Shown here in pieces: positions 38,977 to 45,673 of a stretch of 64,000 nucleotides of DNA. A program made the position numbers and the translations under genes. Numbering within the stretch: position 1 is the first letter of the stretch; every line of letters starts with the position of its first letter. The DNA is taken from contig NZ_JAUOQT010000002.1 in NCBI RefSeq assembly GCF_030547245.1, positions 310,001 to 374,000 of the forward strand, given 5' to 3'. This stretch comes from Oceanihabitans sp. 2_MG-2023 (GTDB lineage: Bacteria > Bacteroidota > Bacteroidia > Flavobacteriales > Flavobacteriaceae). The notes beneath the pieces are model-generated. The model ran no database searches. It saw only the letters and a program-made list of their open reading frames with translations, and was not told where the DNA came from.

Positions 38977-40140
38977 CTAATCGTATTCATTAATTCCGTA
39001 AAGGACTTGCTTCATTTTACTTCCATTAATTTCAACGGGTTTGTAGGCAGTATTAAACTTTTCAATACTGGTTTTTATATTTTCTTTTAAGGTTTTATAT
39101 TCTGTAGGTATTTTGCTTGCACATTGTTGTTCGTTTTCATAGCTGTTTAGCATAATACCAAATTTCTCATAAAACTTTGCTCCTTGGTTTATATGTGAAT
39201 TATATTGCGTTATAAATTGCAAAAGCCTATCAATAGGAAATTCTAGATTTATCTGCATTTTATGTGCTTTATAACGTTGTGTTTCGTCATTAATGACTTT
39301 GTTTAATTCTTCTAAAAACCCATTGAGACTTCCTCTTACAGCATCCCAATCATCTGCATTTCTACATTCTTTTAGTGGTGTTTTATATTGAATCGGTTTT
39401 GTAAAATCTACAAACAGTTGTTCTAACTCCTTAATAATATTATCATTACTTTTTTGCAAAAAGGCAGTTTCAAAATAAATGGTATTTAAATCATTATGCA
39501 TGCGTAAAGTAAAATCTAAAATGCATTCTACATCTTCTAAATTAGCTTCTTTTTCCGCTTTACTAGAACTAGTATTTGTAAATAGGGATACGATTGAATG
39601 TACCACAGAAGTATATATATTATCTCCTAAAATATTTGATAGATTAAAACCTTCTTTTTTATCTTGTTTACTACTAATGACATCTTTCATTTTAGCAAAC
39701 TCTGGATAATGATTAGGGTTACTTAAATTATTAATCTCGTTAAAAGTTGCTACACTAGAAAAATGATGATCTAAACTCAAGGTTTTTTCATATAAGATTT
39801 TAATAATCTGTAAGCCTTTTAAATAGCGTATTTTACTTATATCACTAGCTTCCGATAAAGCATTTAAATTCAACTGTTCTTTTAGTTGATCTTTTTGTAT
39901 TAAAAGAGCGACTTGCTGGTTTGCATTATTTGTTTTTGCAAGTTTTTTATTTAAAACGACAAGTCTTTTCTGTAAACCAATATTTTTAAAATCATAACGT
40001 GAAGTAACAGCCTTCGTTTCTTGTTCTAATTCGTTTAAAACAATAGCTATATTGTTTTCTGGTTTTACATGTGCAAAACCAGAATAGGATATAAACAACA
40101 AGAGTATTATTGCTATAAAATGTTTTATAAACTGTACCAT
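38977..40140 (-). CDS. exported alpha-helical protein of unknown function
   Basis: 387 residues with a signal peptide (~1-23, SYSGFAHV). The mature protein is largely helical and Gln/Lys/Asn-rich. It has a TNTSSSKAEKEANLEDVECILDF central region and a conserved-looking Cys pattern (C210-type ECILD, then KECRNADDW and QQCASKIP). No family is recognised. It starts one base after the stop of the next gene upstream (40142-40594), so the two are an operon of exported proteins and may work together. Confidence 0.6.
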   Translation of the reverse strand: MVQFIKHFIAIILLLFISYSGFAHVKPENNIAIVLNELEQETKAVTSRYDFKNIGLQKRLVVLNKKLAKTNNANQQVALLIQKDQLKEQLNLNALSEASDISKIRYLKGLQIIKILYEKTLSLDHHFSSVATFNEINNLSNPNHYPEFAKMKDVISSKQDKKEGFNLSNILGDNIYTSVVHSIVSLFTNTSSSKAEKEANLEDVECILDFTLRMHNDLNTIYFETAFLQKSNDNIIKELEQLFVDFTKPIQYKTPLKECRNADDWDAVRGSLNGFLEELNKVINDETQRYKAHKMQINLEFPIDRLLQFITQYNSHINQGAKFYEKFGIMLNSYENEQQCASKIPTEYKTLKENIKTSIEKFNTAYKPVEINGSKMKQVLYGINEYD

Positions 40141-40141
40141 A

Positions 40142-40594
40142 CTATTCTAATTTTAGCCTTATAGTAAATGTGTCTTTTGTTATTATTATTGGATAATTCC
40201 CCTTTGCTATTTTGGTTAGAGGTTTTGCTGTTTTCAAACCTATTTTGGTTTCTGCTTCTAGCGTTAAATCCTCTTCCATAATAAAGGTTAATTCATTTAC
40301 TTTAGAGGTTGTAGTAAGGTATTGCCCGACTATTTTATATTCTTCCTCTTTTGTAATTTTAGATCTATCTATAATTAAGGTTATGGTATTCTCTTTATTA
40401 TAGGTTACTTGTGTGTTTGCTTGTGCTTTAGTAGTACTTGTATTAAAACCACAAGCACCTCTACCACTACAATCTAATCCTAATCTCCCAAACGATAATT
40501 CTGTATTAATTGTTGTTTTCTCGGAAATATTTTTCACTTGAGAAAAGGCAATAGTGGTTAGGCATAGTAGCGCTATGTGAATAATTTTTTTCAT
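40142..40594 (-). CDS. small exported protein with DCSGRGACG motif
   Basis: 150 residues. Signal peptide MKKIIHIALLCLTTIAFSQ is followed by a beta-rich mature part of ~130 residues. The most distinctive stretch is RLGLDCSGRGACGFNTST (~37-54), with two closely spaced cysteines that could bind metal or form a disulfide. The rest alternates Thr/Ile/Lys strands. No family is recognised. It is coupled to the downstream helical exported protein (1 bp gap). Confidence 0.6.
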   Translation of the reverse strand: MKKIIHIALLCLTTIAFSQVKNISEKTTINTELSFGRLGLDCSGRGACGFNTSTTKAQANTQVTYNKENTITLIIDRSKITKEEEYKIVGQYLTTTSKVNELTFIMEEDLTLEAETKIGLKTAKPLTKIAKGNYPIIITKDTFTIRLKLE

Positions 40595-40652: not shown

Positions 40653-41159
40653 TTAATACTCAAAACCATTTAAAGCCCAAAGAACATGACATCTAAAACA
40701 AAAAAAACAACAACCATTAAACATTTTATTGTTATTATAGTTATCTAAATTATCCTCAATTATTATAATACCAAACAAACTTTGTTCTTTACTTATATCC
40801 TTTTTTAATTGTCCTGAATTATTCATATAATTTATTGCGTCATAAATCACTTTCCCTGAATCTTCTAATACAATATTCATTGATGTATTATTGGATAAAT
40901 AGTAAAACACTTTTTTTATTATTGCTTCTCCTTCTTTTGAAATTGGAGTTATTTTAGACGTACCATATAATTCCTTCTTAAAAACGATATAGCTATCTCC
41001 TTCCTTGTAATATGGTTTTGCTAATTCTAGCATAGAGTTTAAAGTTTCTGCTAATTCTTTTTGCATACCTTTAATGTCATTTGTAGATTTTGTTTGTGCT
41101 GATATATTTATGGTAAATGATACCATAACAATTATGTATATAAAGTGTAAATTTTTCAT
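40653..41159 (-). CDS. exported protein with Cys/aromatic-rich C-terminus
   Basis: 168 residues. A signal peptide ends near NISAQ. A helical body follows (AETLNSMLELAKPYYKEGD, EAIIKKVFYYLSNNTSMN). The tail is unusual: after NNNNKMF-type residues the protein ends GCCFFCFRCHVLWALNG plus four residues, with four Cys and a His in 8-10 positions. That could be a metal-binding or lipid-interacting tail. No family is recognised. The upstream region faintly resembles the duplicated leader described at 42838 and 44412. Confidence 0.5.
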   Translation of the reverse strand: MKNLHFIYIIVMVSFTINISAQTKSTNDIKGMQKELAETLNSMLELAKPYYKEGDSYIVFKKELYGTSKITPISKEGEAIIKKVFYYLSNNTSMNIVLEDSGKVIYDAINYMNNSGQLKKDISKEQSLFGIIIIEDNLDNYNNNKMFNGCCFFCFRCHVLWALNGFEY

Positions 41160-41262
41160 AATTTAAGTTTTTAATTCCCTACTCTTTTATTGCTTTTCGG
41201 GTTTCGCATTTTATTCATGTTTTATGAAAAAATAATATTGATATATAGTGTTTTTCTCCTAG

Positions 41263-42306
41263 CTACTTTAAAAATTCTATATTTAAAGTTGACCAATTAA
41301 TCTTGTTATTTAATAAATCGTTTAAATAACAAATATTCTTTTCTGTTACAATTATGTTATCTACTGAATTAATAACATTACCTAATTTATAAATTTCTGA
41401 TTGATTATTTGATTGATAAAAAATCAATTTATCATCTTGGATTATTGATCTATTCGTATTCTCAGTAATTTTATTATTTTTATTTTTTTTATAATAAACT
41501 TTACCTTCTGTATAGTCTAAAACCCAATTATAATTTTTCAAAAATTGTACCCCCATTAAATTTCTTTTAATATAATTATTTGATTTAACTATAAAATCAT
41601 TCTCCATTGATTTAAATCTAGAATTGAAAACAGTGTCTAGTTTGCCTCTATTCATAAAGTAAGAAGAATAAGTTTCTGTTTTAATCTTATTAAAATCCTC
41701 TTTTGTTAGTAAAAGTGAATATGGGTTTCCTGTATCTAGCTTAACATTCAAATATTGACCATTAACACTTAAAGAAATAATAAAATAATAACCATCAAAG
41801 TCTAAAACTTTAAGTTCTTTATAGTCTTTATTATTTTTTATAAATGATACAGGTAACTTTTGAATAATATTATTTTTAAAATCTAAACCTATAACTTCAT
41901 TATAGAATAACTCACACCCAATTAGTCCTAAATTATCATTACAAATAGTATTATTTGGTAAAACTCGAAATACTGCATTATTTACTTCAAAAAAATTATT
42001 TTTAATTAATTCAATAACTATTGATTTATTCTCAATTCGTTTTCCATTTGAATTAACTAATTCACCAATTTTTATCGAGTCTTTGATATTTAAACTTTTT
42101 AATTTTTCGCTATAAATAATATTTGGGGCTCCGATATCTAAAAAGAAATTAACACTATCTTTTAGAGAGATCCTATTATTTGATATTTCAAAAGGGATTA
42201 ATTGATTGCTAAATTTAATATCCTGATTATTAACTAACTTATTAAGCTTGATAAAGCTACAGCTACAAAACAAGCATATAATTCCAATAATATAAAGGTT
42301 CCTCAT
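41263..42306 (-). CDS. retropepsin-like aspartic protease family lipoprotein
   Basis: 347 residues. A short hydrophobic signal ends FCSC, a probable non-standard lipobox. Two protease-like halves are seen. The first has FFLDIGAPNIIYS (~57) in the place of the DTG loop. The second has VKLDTGNPYSLLL (~192) with a proper Asp-Thr-Gly. This is the arrangement of gag-polyprotein/PDZ-type aspartyl protease families in Bacteroidota, although the PDZ part is reduced or absent: the C-terminal ~80 residues end in NIIVTEKNICYLNDLLN, which looks like the tail of a PDZ domain. Activity is uncertain because the first motif has DIG in place of DTG. Confidence 0.65.
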   Translation of the reverse strand: MRNLYIIGIICLFCSCSFIKLNKLVNNQDIKFSNQLIPFEISNNRISLKDSVNFFLDIGAPNIIYSEKLKSLNIKDSIKIGELVNSNGKRIENKSIVIELIKNNFFEVNNAVFRVLPNNTICNDNLGLIGCELFYNEVIGLDFKNNIIQKLPVSFIKNNKDYKELKVLDFDGYYFIISLSVNGQYLNVKLDTGNPYSLLLTKEDFNKIKTETYSSYFMNRGKLDTVFNSRFKSMENDFIVKSNNYIKRNLMGVQFLKNYNWVLDYTEGKVYYKKNKNNKITENTNRSIIQDDKLIFYQSNNQSEIYKLGNVINSVDNIIVTEKNICYLNDLLNNKINWSTLNIEFLK

Positions 42307-42369: not shown

Positions 42370-42837
42370 TTACACCCAAGTATCATCTAACCAATCAATA
42401 AACTTTCTTAACCAGTTAAACCATTTTGGTTTCTTTATCCTAGAAGCCTCTCTATCATACTTGACTTCATATTTTTTTAAGGCAATAGCAGTTTTTGCAA
42501 AGCTATTCCCATCTATATAATCGTAAACTTGATCTGGACTTAATTTCTTTGTGTGAAACACATAAATTTCTTCCATATAAGGTTTAAAAATATTTATTAA
42601 TTCTTTATCATCTACACAAGATGTTGTTGATTTAACAAACTCATCTTTAGTCATGCCGTTTTTATAGAATTCTTTTGTTTCTAAATACGTAATAACTGCA
42701 TGAAACTTTCCAACTAATTTTACGGAAGTTGGAATTTTATCATTTGTCTTAAAACTTTCTTGTGCTTTAGAACTAAAAGAAATCAATATCATAAAAACTA
42801 AAGTAATAACTGATATTACATTTTTTAAGTTTTTCAT
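42370..42837 (-). CDS. exported protein of unknown function, leader-element copy 1
   Basis: 155 residues. The signal peptide MKNLKNVISVITLVFMILIS ends SSKAQ. The mature helical protein has a single Cys pattern (STTSCVDDKEL) and a Trp/Lys-rich tail (KPKWFNWLRKFIDWLDDTWV). The first ~15 codons are nearly the same as those of the 218-aa protein at 43755-44411. That similarity comes from a duplicated block covering signal peptide, leader and queG 3' end; beyond the signal the two proteins are unrelated. No family is recognised. Confidence 0.6.
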   Translation of the reverse strand: MKNLKNVISVITLVFMILISFSSKAQESFKTNDKIPTSVKLVGKFHAVITYLETKEFYKNGMTKDEFVKSTTSCVDDKELINIFKPYMEEIYVFHTKKLSPDQVYDYIDGNSFAKTAIALKKYEVKYDREASRIKKPKWFNWLRKFIDWLDDTWV

Positions 42838-43168
42838 TTTAATAAGATTTAAATAAGATCAACTACTCTATACGTTTTTCGGTATACCCGGCTTTTTAAA
42901 GTGTGTAAGCTTTACACTCTTCAAAACAAACTTGCTTCTATCTTATTTAAATTTTTTGTATATATAAAAGATAAACACTGTTTATTTTGGTTTTAGCGAA
43001 CCTATGAGAGCCTTTACCTAGTAGAGTCTTTCTCTTTTTTTTAGTTATTTCCTTTCTGTTTCGTATTCCACTTTTAAGATTAATAATAATAACTAAATAT
43101 AGAATATTTTCTACATAAAACAAAATAATTTCACTGTAAAACACTAATTATCAGATAATAATACTGTT
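42838..43168 (-). promoter_or_regulatory. conserved promoter and long 5' leader, copy 1
   Basis: This fills the 5' part of a 583-bp gap without an intact gene. Bacteroidota-type promoter boxes are TTTG at 43124-43121 and TATATTTA at 43101-43094 (reading minus), with a 19-bp spacer. They predict a start near 43087 and a leader of ~250 nt. The leader holds an inverted repeat GTGTAA-N3-TTACAC (42903-42917), an 8-bp palindrome GGTATACC and a GAGA..TCTC-flanked purine/pyrimidine pair near 43005-43034. Confidence 0.5.
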
Positions 43169-43360
43169 TTAATCTTTAACAAAACCGAAATTAGGTTGCA
43201 AGCCAGAAAACTTGGTACACCTTACTACCAATTCCGGAAGCACTTTTAATCAACATTTCCAGTGTGATTTCTTCCCAAACCCTTTGATCCTTGTTAATAG
43301 TTCTGGATGTGGTTTAAAAAGCAGCTCTTTATGTGGTCTAAAGAATTTACACCAAGAGCA
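43169..43360 (-). pseudogene. queG 3'-end relic (63 codons plus stop)
   Basis: Read on the minus strand from 43360, 63 codons and a TAA align without gaps to the last 63 residues of QueG (44741-45673). By hand count 27 of 63 positions are identical, including PHPELL and TKFSGL. There is an in-frame TGA at codon 37 and the upstream 80% of the gene is missing, so it cannot be functional. It is the counterpart, in duplication copy 1, of the live queG 3' end in copy 2. The adjoining 43361-43420 does not match queG. Confidence 0.88.
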
Positions 43361-43420
43361 CATCTAGCCAATTCTCTTATTTCTTCTTGAATACGCTGTG
43401 CGAACTGTTTTAATTGATCC

Positions 43421-43690
43421 TTATTCGACACTGGTTTTTCTCTTTAAGTATAGAAAGGAAATCACAAATAATAACAAGTAAAACAACCAATATTTTAACT
43501 CTATAAAATTCATACCAACAATTTCTCCATTTAACCAAAACATACCATCATTAAACTTTAAATTAAATTCATTTCGCTTCTCCATTTGAATAAAACCAAC
43601 CAATAAGCTAATACAGTTTACTGTTAAAAGGATTATAATAGTGAGACCTGCAGATTTACTTATTAAAGTGAAATTTTCTTTATTTGTCAT
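43421..43690 (-). CDS. small membrane protein, two helices
   Basis: 89 residues. Helices at ~16-36 and ~63-83 (LKYWLFYLLLFVISFLYL) enclose a hydrophilic loop with NEFNLKFNDGMFWLNGEIVG. Its start is 64 bp downstream of the stop of the exported 218-aa protein on the same strand. No family is recognised. It is probably a real gene from its composition and its position in the cluster, but coding evidence is limited by its size. Confidence 0.5.
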   Translation of the reverse strand: MTNKENFTLISKSAGLTIIILLTVNCISLLVGFIQMEKRNEFNLKFNDGMFWLNGEIVGMNFIELKYWLFYLLLFVISFLYLKRKTSVE

Positions 43691-43754
43691 AAGATTTAAT
43701 TTGAATTCTGAAACTCAAGTTTTTATTAAACTTGAATTTCAGAAAATTTAATAA

Positions 43755-44411
43755 TTATTTTGAAAGATTTATAGATAAGTTTTTGCTATTTGAAAAATCT
43801 TCTGATTTTAATTTACGTTGATTTAATGGAATAAACTTCATACTTGTAACATCATATTTTTTTCCTTTAATTGTTATTTCATGACTTATAGGACCTTCTG
43901 TTTTACTGAAACAATCACAATCAAATCCTATTGAGGCATAATGTCCCTCATGTGTATAACCTATTTCGGCTTGAACACAACACATAACAATTGCTACAAC
44001 AATTTGCCACCAATCTTCTTTGGAATTCACATAAGTTATAATTGGTTCGTTTAATTTATTAAAACCATTAAAGTTATTATTTGGCCCTCCTTTGATATTT
44101 CCTGTATTAATATTATCGTCGTATGATGTGACCAATTTCTCCCCATTATATAATTCAATTCTTACTTCTTCAAAAGGAGTGTTTTCCAAATTAGGAAGTA
44201 TTGTTGTTTTCCCTAACTGGTCCTTTACTATATCAAGGCTAATTATTTTATAATTATTTGATTTATATTCTAAAGCTGTTTTATTAGAATTAATAGAAGA
44301 TAAGTCTATTAATTCAGATTTACTGAATTCTTTCTGCGCACTAACATCAAGACTAGTCAACATAACCAAAACTAGAGTAATAACCGACATTACATTTTTT
44401 AAGTTTTTCAT
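43755..44411 (-). CDS. exported protein of unknown function, leader-element copy 2
   Basis: 218 residues. Signal peptide MKNLKNVMSVITLVLVMLTS ends VSAQ. The mature part includes an Asn/Gly linker (GNIKGGPNNNFNGFNKL), then a Cys-containing hydrophobic stretch (VVAIVMCCVQAEIGYTHEG) and FDCDCFSKTEG. The four Cys and nearby His could form disulfides or a metal site. The tail is Ser/Lys/Asn-rich. No family is recognised. It shares promoter, leader and signal-peptide start with the 155-aa gene at 42370-42837. Confidence 0.6.
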   Translation of the reverse strand: MKNLKNVMSVITLVLVMLTSLDVSAQKEFSKSELIDLSSINSNKTALEYKSNNYKIISLDIVKDQLGKTTILPNLENTPFEEVRIELYNGEKLVTSYDDNINTGNIKGGPNNNFNGFNKLNEPIITYVNSKEDWWQIVVAIVMCCVQAEIGYTHEGHYASIGFDCDCFSKTEGPISHEITIKGKKYDVTSMKFIPLNQRKLKSEDFSNSKNLSINLSK

Positions 44412-44935
44412 TTTAATAAGATTTAAATAAGATCACCTACTCTATACGTTTTTCGGTATACCCGGCTTTTTAAAGTGTGTAAGCTTTACACTCTTCAAAA
44501 CAAACTTGCTTCTATCTTATTTAATTTTTTTGTATCTTTATAAAAGATAAACACTGTTTATTTTGGTTTTAGCGAACCTATGAGAGCCTTTACCTAGTAG
44601 AGGCTTTCTCTTTTTTAATTATTTCCTTTCTGTTTCGTATTCTACTTTTTATAATTAACAACAACTAAATATAGAATATTTTCTATATAAAACAAAATAA
44701 TTTTACTGTAAAACACTAATTATCAGACAATAAGTTGATTTTACTCTTTAAGAAAATGGATATTGCGTGTTAACCCAGAGAATTTGGTACGCTTTACTGC
44801 AGATTTTTGAAACACTTTTTGAAATACATCTTCTGTAATTTCTTCCCAATCCTTTTTGGTCATCGATAACAGTTCTGGGTGCGGGTTGAAAAGGGGCTCA
44901 TTATGGGCTTTAGAGAACTTGTTCCAAGGACAAAC
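44362..44935 (-). repeat. segmental duplication, copy 2 (signal-peptide start, leader, live queG 3' end)
   Basis: Partner of 42790-43363 at an offset of 1571-1574 bp. Here the queG part is intact and in frame with the full gene. Both copies run in the same direction, so the arrangement is a direct repeat that encloses the two-helix membrane protein and the 218-aa exported protein. Confidence 0.9.
44412..44740 (-). promoter_or_regulatory. conserved promoter and long 5' leader, copy 2
   Basis: This occupies the 329-bp gap between queG and the 218-aa exported gene. The boxes are TTTG at 44696-44693 and TATATTTA at 44673-44666 (minus), with a 19-bp spacer. The predicted start is near 44658, giving a ~247-nt leader. 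The same inverted repeats as in copy 1 are present, and here the GAGA-AA-GCC / GGC-TCTC pairing around 44581-44610 is better matched. No open reading frame of note is seen in the leader. Confidence 0.5.
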
Positions 44936-45673
44936 GTCTTGGCAAACATCGCAACCAAACATCCAATCGTCTAATTTGTCTTTAAATTCGGTTGGAATAT
45001 TTTCTTTTAACTCGATGGTAAAATAGGAAATACACTTACTGCCATCAACCACGTATGGCTCTGTTATGGCTTGTGTTGGACAAGCATCAACACATGCGGT
45101 ACAGGTACCACAGTGATCTGTTACTGGCGCATCGTATTCTAAATCTAAATCTATAATTAATTCTGCTATAAAATAGAACGACCCAACTTGTTGCGTTAGT
45201 AAATTACTGTGTTTACCAATCCAACCTAAACCCGATTTAGCTGCCCATGCTTTATCTAAAACAGGAGCAGAATCAACAAATGCGCGACCATGAACCTCGC
45301 CTATTTGATCTTGGATGAAATGGGTGAGTTCTTTTAATTTGGATTTAATGACATGATGATAATCATTTCCATAGGCATATTTGGATAGTTTATAGCTATT
45401 CGCTGTTTGTTCTTTACTCGGGTAATAATTTAGGAGTAAAGAAATTACAGATTTAGAATCTGCTACGAGTTTGGTGGGATCCAGACGTTTATCGAAATGG
45501 TTTTCCATATAACGCATTTCACCGTGACTATTATTTTTAAGCCACTTTTCTAATCGTGGTGCTTCTTCTTCTAGAAATGCTGCTTTACTAATACCACAAG
45601 ACAAAAAACCGAGGCGTTTGGCTTCGGATTTAATACTGCTACTATACTTTTGTTTTGTGTTCATTATTTGCAT
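44741..45673 (-). CDS. queG: epoxyqueuosine reductase QueG
   Basis: 310 residues. The cobalamin-binding N-terminal region contains the [16 protein letters not shown] segment and [23 protein letters not shown], a QueG hallmark. Two 4Fe-4S clusters are ligated by [12 protein letters not shown] (~190) and [10 protein letters not shown] (~240). It makes the last step of queuosine synthesis in tRNA (epoxyqueuosine to queuosine). Two in-frame ATGs, 45673 and 45664, are possible starts. A decayed copy of its last 63 codons lies ~1.6 kb downstream. The upstream neighbour is ruvB on the same strand. Confidence 0.95.

Follow-up and report, generated by a model that had tools for sequence, protein, structure and literature searches.

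The queG locus and its direct repeat

Downstream of the intact queG gene, on the minus strand of a 64,000-nucleotide stretch of the Oceanihabitans sp. 2_MG-2023 genome (contig NZ_JAUOQT010000002.1, positions 310,001 to 374,000; hereafter the window), lies a row of genes for exported proteins (Table 1). Two of them, encoding variable proteins of 218 and 155 amino acids (aa) that we call cargo, each start behind a copy of the same leader and are each followed by a partner gene; between the two pairs sits a decayed queG 3' end. A third cargo gene and 2 conserved tail genes, for proteins of 150 and 387 aa, complete the row. We consider, with moderate confidence, that the locus is a polymorphic one for secreted proteins, in which antagonist-like cargo with partners shares a leader, and that the repeat marks the junction of two cassettes stacked there. 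Below, other genomes carry G numbers and other loci L numbers.

Table 1. Features of the window behind queG (window positions).
Feature	Position	Strand	Remarks
queG, intact, 310 aa, anchor of the locus	44741..45673	-	Pfam Fer4_16 and QueG_DUF1730 above cut-off
Leader copy 2: 5' dyad, promoter-like stretch, hairpin, DUF805b-like 3' hairpin	44412..44740	-	Match to leader model R1 at 44414-44619
218 aa exported protein, cassette A, family cCCVQ	43755..44411	-	Signal peptide at about 44334-44411
89 aa small membrane protein, partner of cassette A	43421..43690	-	
Decayed queG 3' relic, 64 codons, one TGA, compensating indels	43172..43363	-	QueG search and alignments
Leader copy 1	42838..43171	-	Match to model R1 at 42840-43043; 98% identical to copy 2 over the last 200 nucleotides (nt)
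155 aa exported protein, cassette B, family cDWLDD	42370..42837	-	Signal peptide at about 42760-42837
347 aa aspartyl-protease-like lipoprotein, partner of cassette B	41263..42306	-	
DUF805b RNA (RF02914), leader of the 168 aa gene	41176..41210	-	45 bits, gathering cut-off 35.6
168 aa exported protein, third cassette, family cWCHL, lacking the usual TraB-like partner	40653..41159	-	
150 aa exported protein, conserved tail gene 1	40142..40594	-	Homologue in 57/84 clustered loci
387 aa exported helical protein, conserved tail gene 2	38977..40140	-	80 loci kept

A direct-repeat search paired 42783-42978 with 44357-44552 (92% identity), 42952-43040 with 44528-44616 (94%) and 43079-43247 with 44651-44819 (80%), the spacing of all pairs being 1572-1576. 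The local alignment of one block with the other on the minus strand (score 724) starts in the queG part, spans the leader and extends into the signal peptide. An earlier note on this DNA had described a same-orientation duplication in which each block holds a queG 3' end, a leader and a signal-peptide start, and both analyses confirm this for the copies at 42783-43363 and 44357-44935. Identity between the copies is graded: 135/202 (67%) in the queG part, 121/142 (85%) over the following 142 columns, 194/198 (98%) in the last 200 nt upstream of the start codon, and 57/75 (76%) in the DNA of the signal peptide.

The relic derives from the 3' end of queG, as had been proposed. A QueG search of the strain's own genome finds it with E = 6.1e-8 (42% identity over residues 247-310), and its score against QueG, 124, lies far above those of 1000 shuffles of the relic (mean 27, maximum 54). 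The details given earlier, 63 codons with an in-frame TGA at codon 37 and no frameshift, hold less well: a single TGA is present, at codon 38 counted from the first aligned residue, and a recount gives 64 codons. Alignment with queG at the DNA level requires several small gaps in the middle of the relic that cancel each other, so that a portion of the relic departs from the queG frame, the net frame being kept.

Origin of the mature proteins

Past the first 38 residues the 155 and 218 aa proteins have no local match to each other, and a forced global alignment of their mature parts gives 36/121 identities. Each has relatives elsewhere. The 218 aa mature part is 54% identical to its homologue at L158, and the 89 aa partner is 47% identical to the L158 partner and approximately 30% to the 86 aa proteins of L132 and L133; all 4 members of cCCVQ are followed by such an 86 or 89 aa membrane protein. 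Similarly, the 155 aa mature part is 46-49% identical to proteins at L191, L194 and L196, and an aspartyl-protease-like gene directly follows the cDWLDD cargo gene in 4/4 loci (these 3 and the window). The 347 aa partner is 29% identical to its L191 homologue; PF13650 is above cut-off in the L191 and L171 aspartyl-protease-like proteins and below it in the window copy, for which PADLOC reports PEPT_D at E = 1e-4. The window mature proteins and partners are thus members of older families found in other genera with other signal peptides, here joined to a local leader and signal peptide.

This bears directly on the history put forward in the earlier note, in which the segment from the queG 3' end to the signal peptide, leader included, was copied in tandem within the genome and the mature proteins then diverged rapidly. 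The duplicated segment behind queG is real, and in the site patterns of five leaders (sites split 2 against 3) the two window copies share 12 sites, the next pair sharing 5, which places both copies on the window lineage. However, both mature proteins and their partners have homologues paired in the same way in other genera, and the mature parts lack local similarity, making divergence in place very unlikely. The related proposal that the duplication founded new exported genes is likewise unsupported, the 155 and 218 aa proteins being members of cross-genus cassette families. A leader tree was dropped as evidence, with support of 36-70 around the window copies, and the site patterns were used instead.

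The signal peptide of the 155 aa protein is 17/26 identical to that of its 218 aa neighbour and 7/21 to that of its L191 homologue. Tabulating 35 of 71 signal peptides (the other 36 came from loci given no genus), we obtained a median identity of 65% for different cargo within Lacinutrix (22 pairs) and 31% for the same cargo in different genera (22 pairs). The corresponding values were 38% for different cargo within Flavobacterium (184 pairs) and 42% for the same cargo within a genus, all genera taken together (95 pairs). The signal peptide therefore goes with the locus, clearly in Lacinutrix and weakly in Flavobacterium, and the mature parts were most likely brought in rather than evolved in place. 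These data also suit a second alternative, in which the leader unit was duplicated in tandem in place and recombination at the signal peptide then exchanged the mature part and partner: derived sites are common to the leader copies, and the signal peptide follows the locus. It requires two events per cassette, and we regard it as unlikely, if far less so than divergence in place.

The 155 aa protein is predicted to be all-helical (model predicted local distance difference test score, pLDDT, 80), and neither it nor the 387 aa protein (pLDDT 78) has a fold match in the PDB at E<=0.001. Profiles of the two searched against PDB sequences gave nothing up to E 0.1 in one search and four unconvincing matches at E 0.48-0.57 in the other. 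The 150 and 387 aa tail proteins have no Pfam family above cut-off. The 168 aa protein, 32-34% identical to leader-headed proteins of the congeners G002 and G004, is followed by the 150 aa gene.

Cargo families and their partners

In 84 loci (the 80 described below plus the window, G001, G322 and G099), we clustered the open reading frames (ORFs) that lie upstream of the 387 aa gene and point in its direction, using Louvain clustering of mature parts in place of an earlier single linkage that had fused cargo with tail genes; clusters 4+16, 27+34, 28+35, 3+26 and 11+18 were merged by hand after the listing had been seen. A cargo type is usually followed by its own partner family, and the 150 and 387 aa tail genes lie behind most such loci. 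Named families account for 70 cargo genes; for 49 of them the very next gene belongs to a named partner family, and 48/49 of these pairs fit one rule per family. The pairs comprise cWCHL with a TraB-like protein (15, with one exception), cNP and cDWLDD with an aspartyl-protease-like protein (19), cCCVQ with the 86/89 aa membrane protein (4), cGCK with CPBP (4), cBETA with a lipoprotein family (4) and cGLY with a C92-like protein (2). In 5000 shuffles the number of fitting pairs averaged 23.5 and never exceeded 31, a comparison that is not a blind test, and a count that is not a probability, because families were named post hoc and merged and the loci are related, some nearly identical (L154/L155, L168/L208). 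For each of the CPBP, RDD, PLDc_N and Asp_protease_2 assignments, one or more members score above the Pfam cut-off, and the Rce1-like partner is above cut-off. Cluster 5, at first called "Trx", had no Pfam support as a thioredoxin and was kept merely as a lipoprotein family.

The leader

Both window copies are seeds of the leader model R1. Copy 2 is 92-93% identical in the congeners G001, G002 and G004; compared with G001 the leader is 92.1% identical (191/200 over the last 200 nt), and the queG DNA only 77.8%. The leader is thus better conserved between species than queG, and its conservation is therefore not explained by recent copying alone. The likeness of the two window copies may owe something to gene conversion.

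The 3' end of the leader resembles the DUF805b RNA (RF02914), and both copies, like that RNA, lie upstream of a gene on the same strand. Their scores of 22.9 (copy 2) and 15.4 bits (copy 1) are under the gathering cut-off of 35.6, and the conserved unit in the window differs in being approximately 200 nt long, with a 5' dyad outside the Rfam model. An Rfam scan gave no convincing family for the 5' part. A trpB motif on the opposite strand was rejected, its 29.1 bits (cut-off 59, E 1.2) being at chance level. The leader has no match among phage records and 3 among plasmid records, covering 11-29% of its length at E 2e-3 to 7e-3, and we therefore see no sign of a phage or plasmid carrier in this comparison.

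In the helix of the 5' dyad, 6/11 pairs have changed on both sides among 22 sequences, with no one-sided (G-U) change. Against 500 shuffles, the count of further pair types is below all, and the other four measures are above all, in an alignment that was fitted to the model and is hence biased towards structure. The absence of G-U pairs is as compatible with a DNA operator as with a hairpin. Behind queG (window approximately 44666-44713) lies a palindromic stretch, similar to ATAGAAAATATTCTATAT, that recurs elsewhere in the strain's own genome and in relatives (L003, L004, L020, L021, L023, L025, L027, L028 and L030-L034); it is perhaps a separate operator or terminator.

The DUF805b gathering cut-off is passed at the 168 aa gene of the window and also at L088 (44.1 bits). 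The strain's genome holds two other DUF805b RNAs above cut-off, L006 and L007 (C23:270828 and C28:36615), which by eye precede a 233 aa protein with a signal peptide and a 238 aa lipoprotein, as if DUF805b marked secreted genes. Among the papers listed in a search of the open-licence literature, none uses the word DUF805b.

Congeners and a second relic

In the congeners, too, a common leader and signal peptide stand before mature proteins that differ: the leader heads a protein of 239 aa in G001, 211 aa in G002 and 194 aa in Lacinutrix himadriensis (G004). The latter two share a cargo type, from which the G001 protein and the 218 aa window protein are distinct past the signal peptide, as they are from each other. 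In G005 and G006 the site is empty, queG being followed by a 301 aa gene or a malic enzyme gene, and the leader has no match in either genome; the fragmented G003 assembly gave no QueG match.

L. himadriensis carries a second queG scar. Nucleotides 841-925 of queG (927 nt) recur there at L065:13694-13614 with 72-73% identity; the E value is 1.5e-7 when queG is taken from G001 or G002 and 2.9e-6 when it is taken from the species itself. This relic ends where a distal leader begins, at the expected distance. Similarity to queG upstream of the 85-nt relic is lost (approximately 50% over all 205 columns). The relic is unseen by tblastn, and the queG of G005, G006, G012 and G023 has no match there at E 0.01. 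In this species the leader next to queG has decayed, its identity being 62-63% over 140 columns and 77% in the best local stretch (134 columns). Between the two leaders lie a truncated TraB-like gene and a CPBP gene that lacks cargo. Since the window leaders group together at 12 sites and the distal L. himadriensis leader shares only 2 site patterns with window copy 1, two separate duplications are the simplest account; one old duplication with conversion is possible.

The earlier note had suggested looking in relatives for repeated leader-plus-signal units with different mature proteins behind queG. This expectation is borne out in part, by the G001, G002 and L. himadriensis proteins, the second relic, and repeats in Myroides indicus and at L154/L155. 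At L182 in M. indicus, a 150-nt leader (with signal) repeat at 80% identity precedes different cargo, as do repeats of 128-129 columns at 68-74% at L154/L155; shorter repeats at L190 and L192 stand before two members of one family. Direct repeats occur in the cassette region of 25 of 75 loci scanned, many of them inside or between related genes. The two M. indicus proteins behind the common leader and signal peptide (L182:6640-8557) have a Gly-rich stretch that sits towards the C-terminal end of one protein and at the N-terminus of the other, as though permuted.

Spread of the leader and the 387 aa gene

Searching with a profile of the 387 aa gene gave 82 loci, and 80 of them were retained. 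Twenty of these contain 22 leader matches, 22/22 upstream of the 387 aa gene and on its strand, numbers that carry some circularity given that 3 of the 20 loci (L140, L141 and L152) are seeds of the model and 7/11 seeds come from 387 aa loci. The other 60, Flavobacterium loci included, have no leader match at E 0.05; the regions upstream of Flavobacterium-type cargo have short shared words. A scan of 397 genomes of the family, with strict filters that drop weak matches, gave 22 matches in 18 genomes; the samples overlap, leader loci L144, L151, L154, L155, L157 and L188 being contigs from those genomes. By reading, 13/22 matches precede a 387 aa locus and 9/22 other genes, and the first gene after the leader starts, by eye, with a signal peptide or lipobox in 22/22. 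One of the 9 other cases, in G016, lies close to lantibiotic dehydratase domains and a C39 ABC exporter.

Among 7 large neighbours that were scanned, 6 have an AraC-type HTH_18 domain above cut-off (L089, L094, L129, L130, L135 and L136) and the seventh, at L087, has a CHAT domain; TPR repeats are above cut-off only at L094 and L136. The AraC-type gene is the divergent neighbour of the leader in 5/6 cases, with two genes between them at L094. Upstream of the cargo, leaderless loci often have a pair of genes for a histidine-kinase-like protein and a response regulator (clusters 8 and 6, by eye; both genes at L165, L173, L177, L180, L181, L184 and L187, the regulator only at L185 and L206), perhaps in place of the AraC-type regulator.

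Two contigs of metagenome-assembled genomes labelled Bifidobacterium breve (L164 and L171) carry the 387 aa gene, and L171 also a Flavobacterium-type cassette; these bins are probably misnamed or contaminated. Near the L135 leader locus, a 71 aa Cys-rich ORF (L135:12049-12264) looks by eye like a class I lanthipeptide precursor; it has no Pfam or NCBIfam match.

Predicted function and comparison with known systems

The sequences suggest that the cargo may consist of bacteriocin-like exported proteins and the partners of immunity-type or processing proteins. At least 2 Cys residues occur in the last 60 residues of 44/69 cargo proteins and 0/55 tail proteins, most consistently in cWCHL (16/16), cNP (15/19), cCCVQ (4/4) and cGCK (4/4), then cAVV (3/6) and cGLY (2/8); for partners the counts are 2/23 (aspartyl-protease-like) and 0/17 (TraB-like). 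Some cGLY members (L142, L159, L167, L173 and L202) have Gly/Ala-rich ends. Alternatively, the exported proteins could be signals, adhesins or envelope factors, with maturation proteases or receptors as partners. Several partners are indeed protease-like (Rce1-like and Asp_protease_2 above cut-off, TraB-like below), and TraB/PrgY relatives act on peptide pheromones. The Gly/Ala-rich and Cys-hydrophobic tails, the small membrane partners and the leader near a lanthipeptide cluster fit bacteriocins better, and we hold this alternative to be doubtful.

The loci share two traits of polymorphic toxins. A constant N-terminal part precedes a variable C-terminal part, the leader and signal being common within Lacinutrix and this trait weaker in Flavobacterium, and a family-specific gene lies directly downstream in 48/49 adjoining pairs. 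In the sections of PMC5562445 drawn on here, the myxobacterial SitA/SitI/SitB system likewise combines an N-terminal secretion signal, a variable C-terminal part and an adjoining family-specific gene, with several different cassettes per genome. By comparison with that description, the window-type proteins are mostly 130-290 aa with no nuclease domain in those scanned, and their loci add a common cis leader and the 150 and 387 aa tail genes. Bacteroidetocins, as the corresponding parts of PMC6671954 present them, are Bacteroidota peptides that also have Cys pairs; their double-glycine leader is 15-16 aa long, the mature peptide of the two that were studied has 42 aa, and they come with a double-glycine-peptidase exporter and without an obvious immunity gene. 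The window proteins differ from that picture in being long (155-218 aa), with signal peptides and adjoining partners, and no exporter is present among the 10 window ORFs scanned. The cargo and partner families are not described in the portions of PMC6671954, PMC5562445 and PMC7440613 (on Flavobacteriaceae gene clusters) drawn on here, and none of the papers listed in searches of the open-licence literature names them, judging by titles and abstract starts.

Genomic islands can replace the 3' end of a housekeeping gene and leave the displaced host 3' end on their far side. The window resembles such islands in its displaced 3' end and differs in that no integrase is found among the same 10 ORFs (37.9-46.8 kb); homologous recombination suffices without one.

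A model of cassette stacking

In the model that we favour, a cassette with a queG 3' end, leader and cargo would have recombined into the resident locus via queG homology. The incoming cassette would have supplied the present queG 3' end, and the old 3' end, leader and cassette would have moved downstream, where the queG scrap decayed and the leader stayed under selection. The leader could then act as the common switch of a competition regulon, perhaps as an operator for the large AraC-type regulators and a 5' untranslated region ending in the DUF805b-like hairpin. The variable proteins would be bacteriocin-like antagonists exported by the Sec pathway, with the partners (small membrane proteins, CPBP, aspartyl-protease-like, TraB-like and RDD) providing immunity or peptide processing. 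By stacking, a strain may keep immunity to the old type while gaining a new one.

Several observations weigh against this model, besides the post hoc family naming and the seed circularity given above. The same scar is expected from tandem duplication followed by cassette replacement, and the relic, 67% identical to the strain's own queG and 66-68% to that of G001, G002 and G004, is equally close to all and therefore identifies no donor. The 218 aa protein and its L158 homologue have 11/26 identities in the signal peptide, which makes a swap less clear for the 218 aa protein. No adjoining named partner is present for 21/70 cargo genes, the next gene being another cargo gene (10), an unnamed ORF (9) or a tail gene (2); the 168 aa gene of the window is itself without its family's usual partner. 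The TraB and C92 assignments are under Pfam cut-offs, and no AraC-type regulator lies beside the window locus. As to antagonist function, cDWLDD, the family of the 155 aa protein, has neither a Cys pair (0/4) nor a hydrophobic tail (0/4), cBETA has no Cys pair (0/8) and a more hydrophobic end in 1/8, and none of 14 cargo proteins scanned reaches the cut-off of class II bacteriocin models of Pfam or NCBIfam (best PF10439 at L087, E 0.31).

More tentatively, we propose that the window belongs to an undescribed system spread across the Flavobacteriaceae. It would comprise six to eight exported bacteriocin-like families, most with their own immunity partner, and the common leader and locus-bound signal peptide would serve as a recombination handle. 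Cassettes would stack behind a host gene and leave one 3' scar per addition, and the 150 and 387 aa tail genes would be common delivery or processing parts. The searchable leader, the conserved 387 aa marker and the pairing rule would together allow candidate bacteriocins and their immunity genes to be catalogued directly across one of the common aquatic families of bacteria. In two species, the queG scars illustrate how a locus may gain a new weapon yet keep the old antidote, a step that is usually only inferred.

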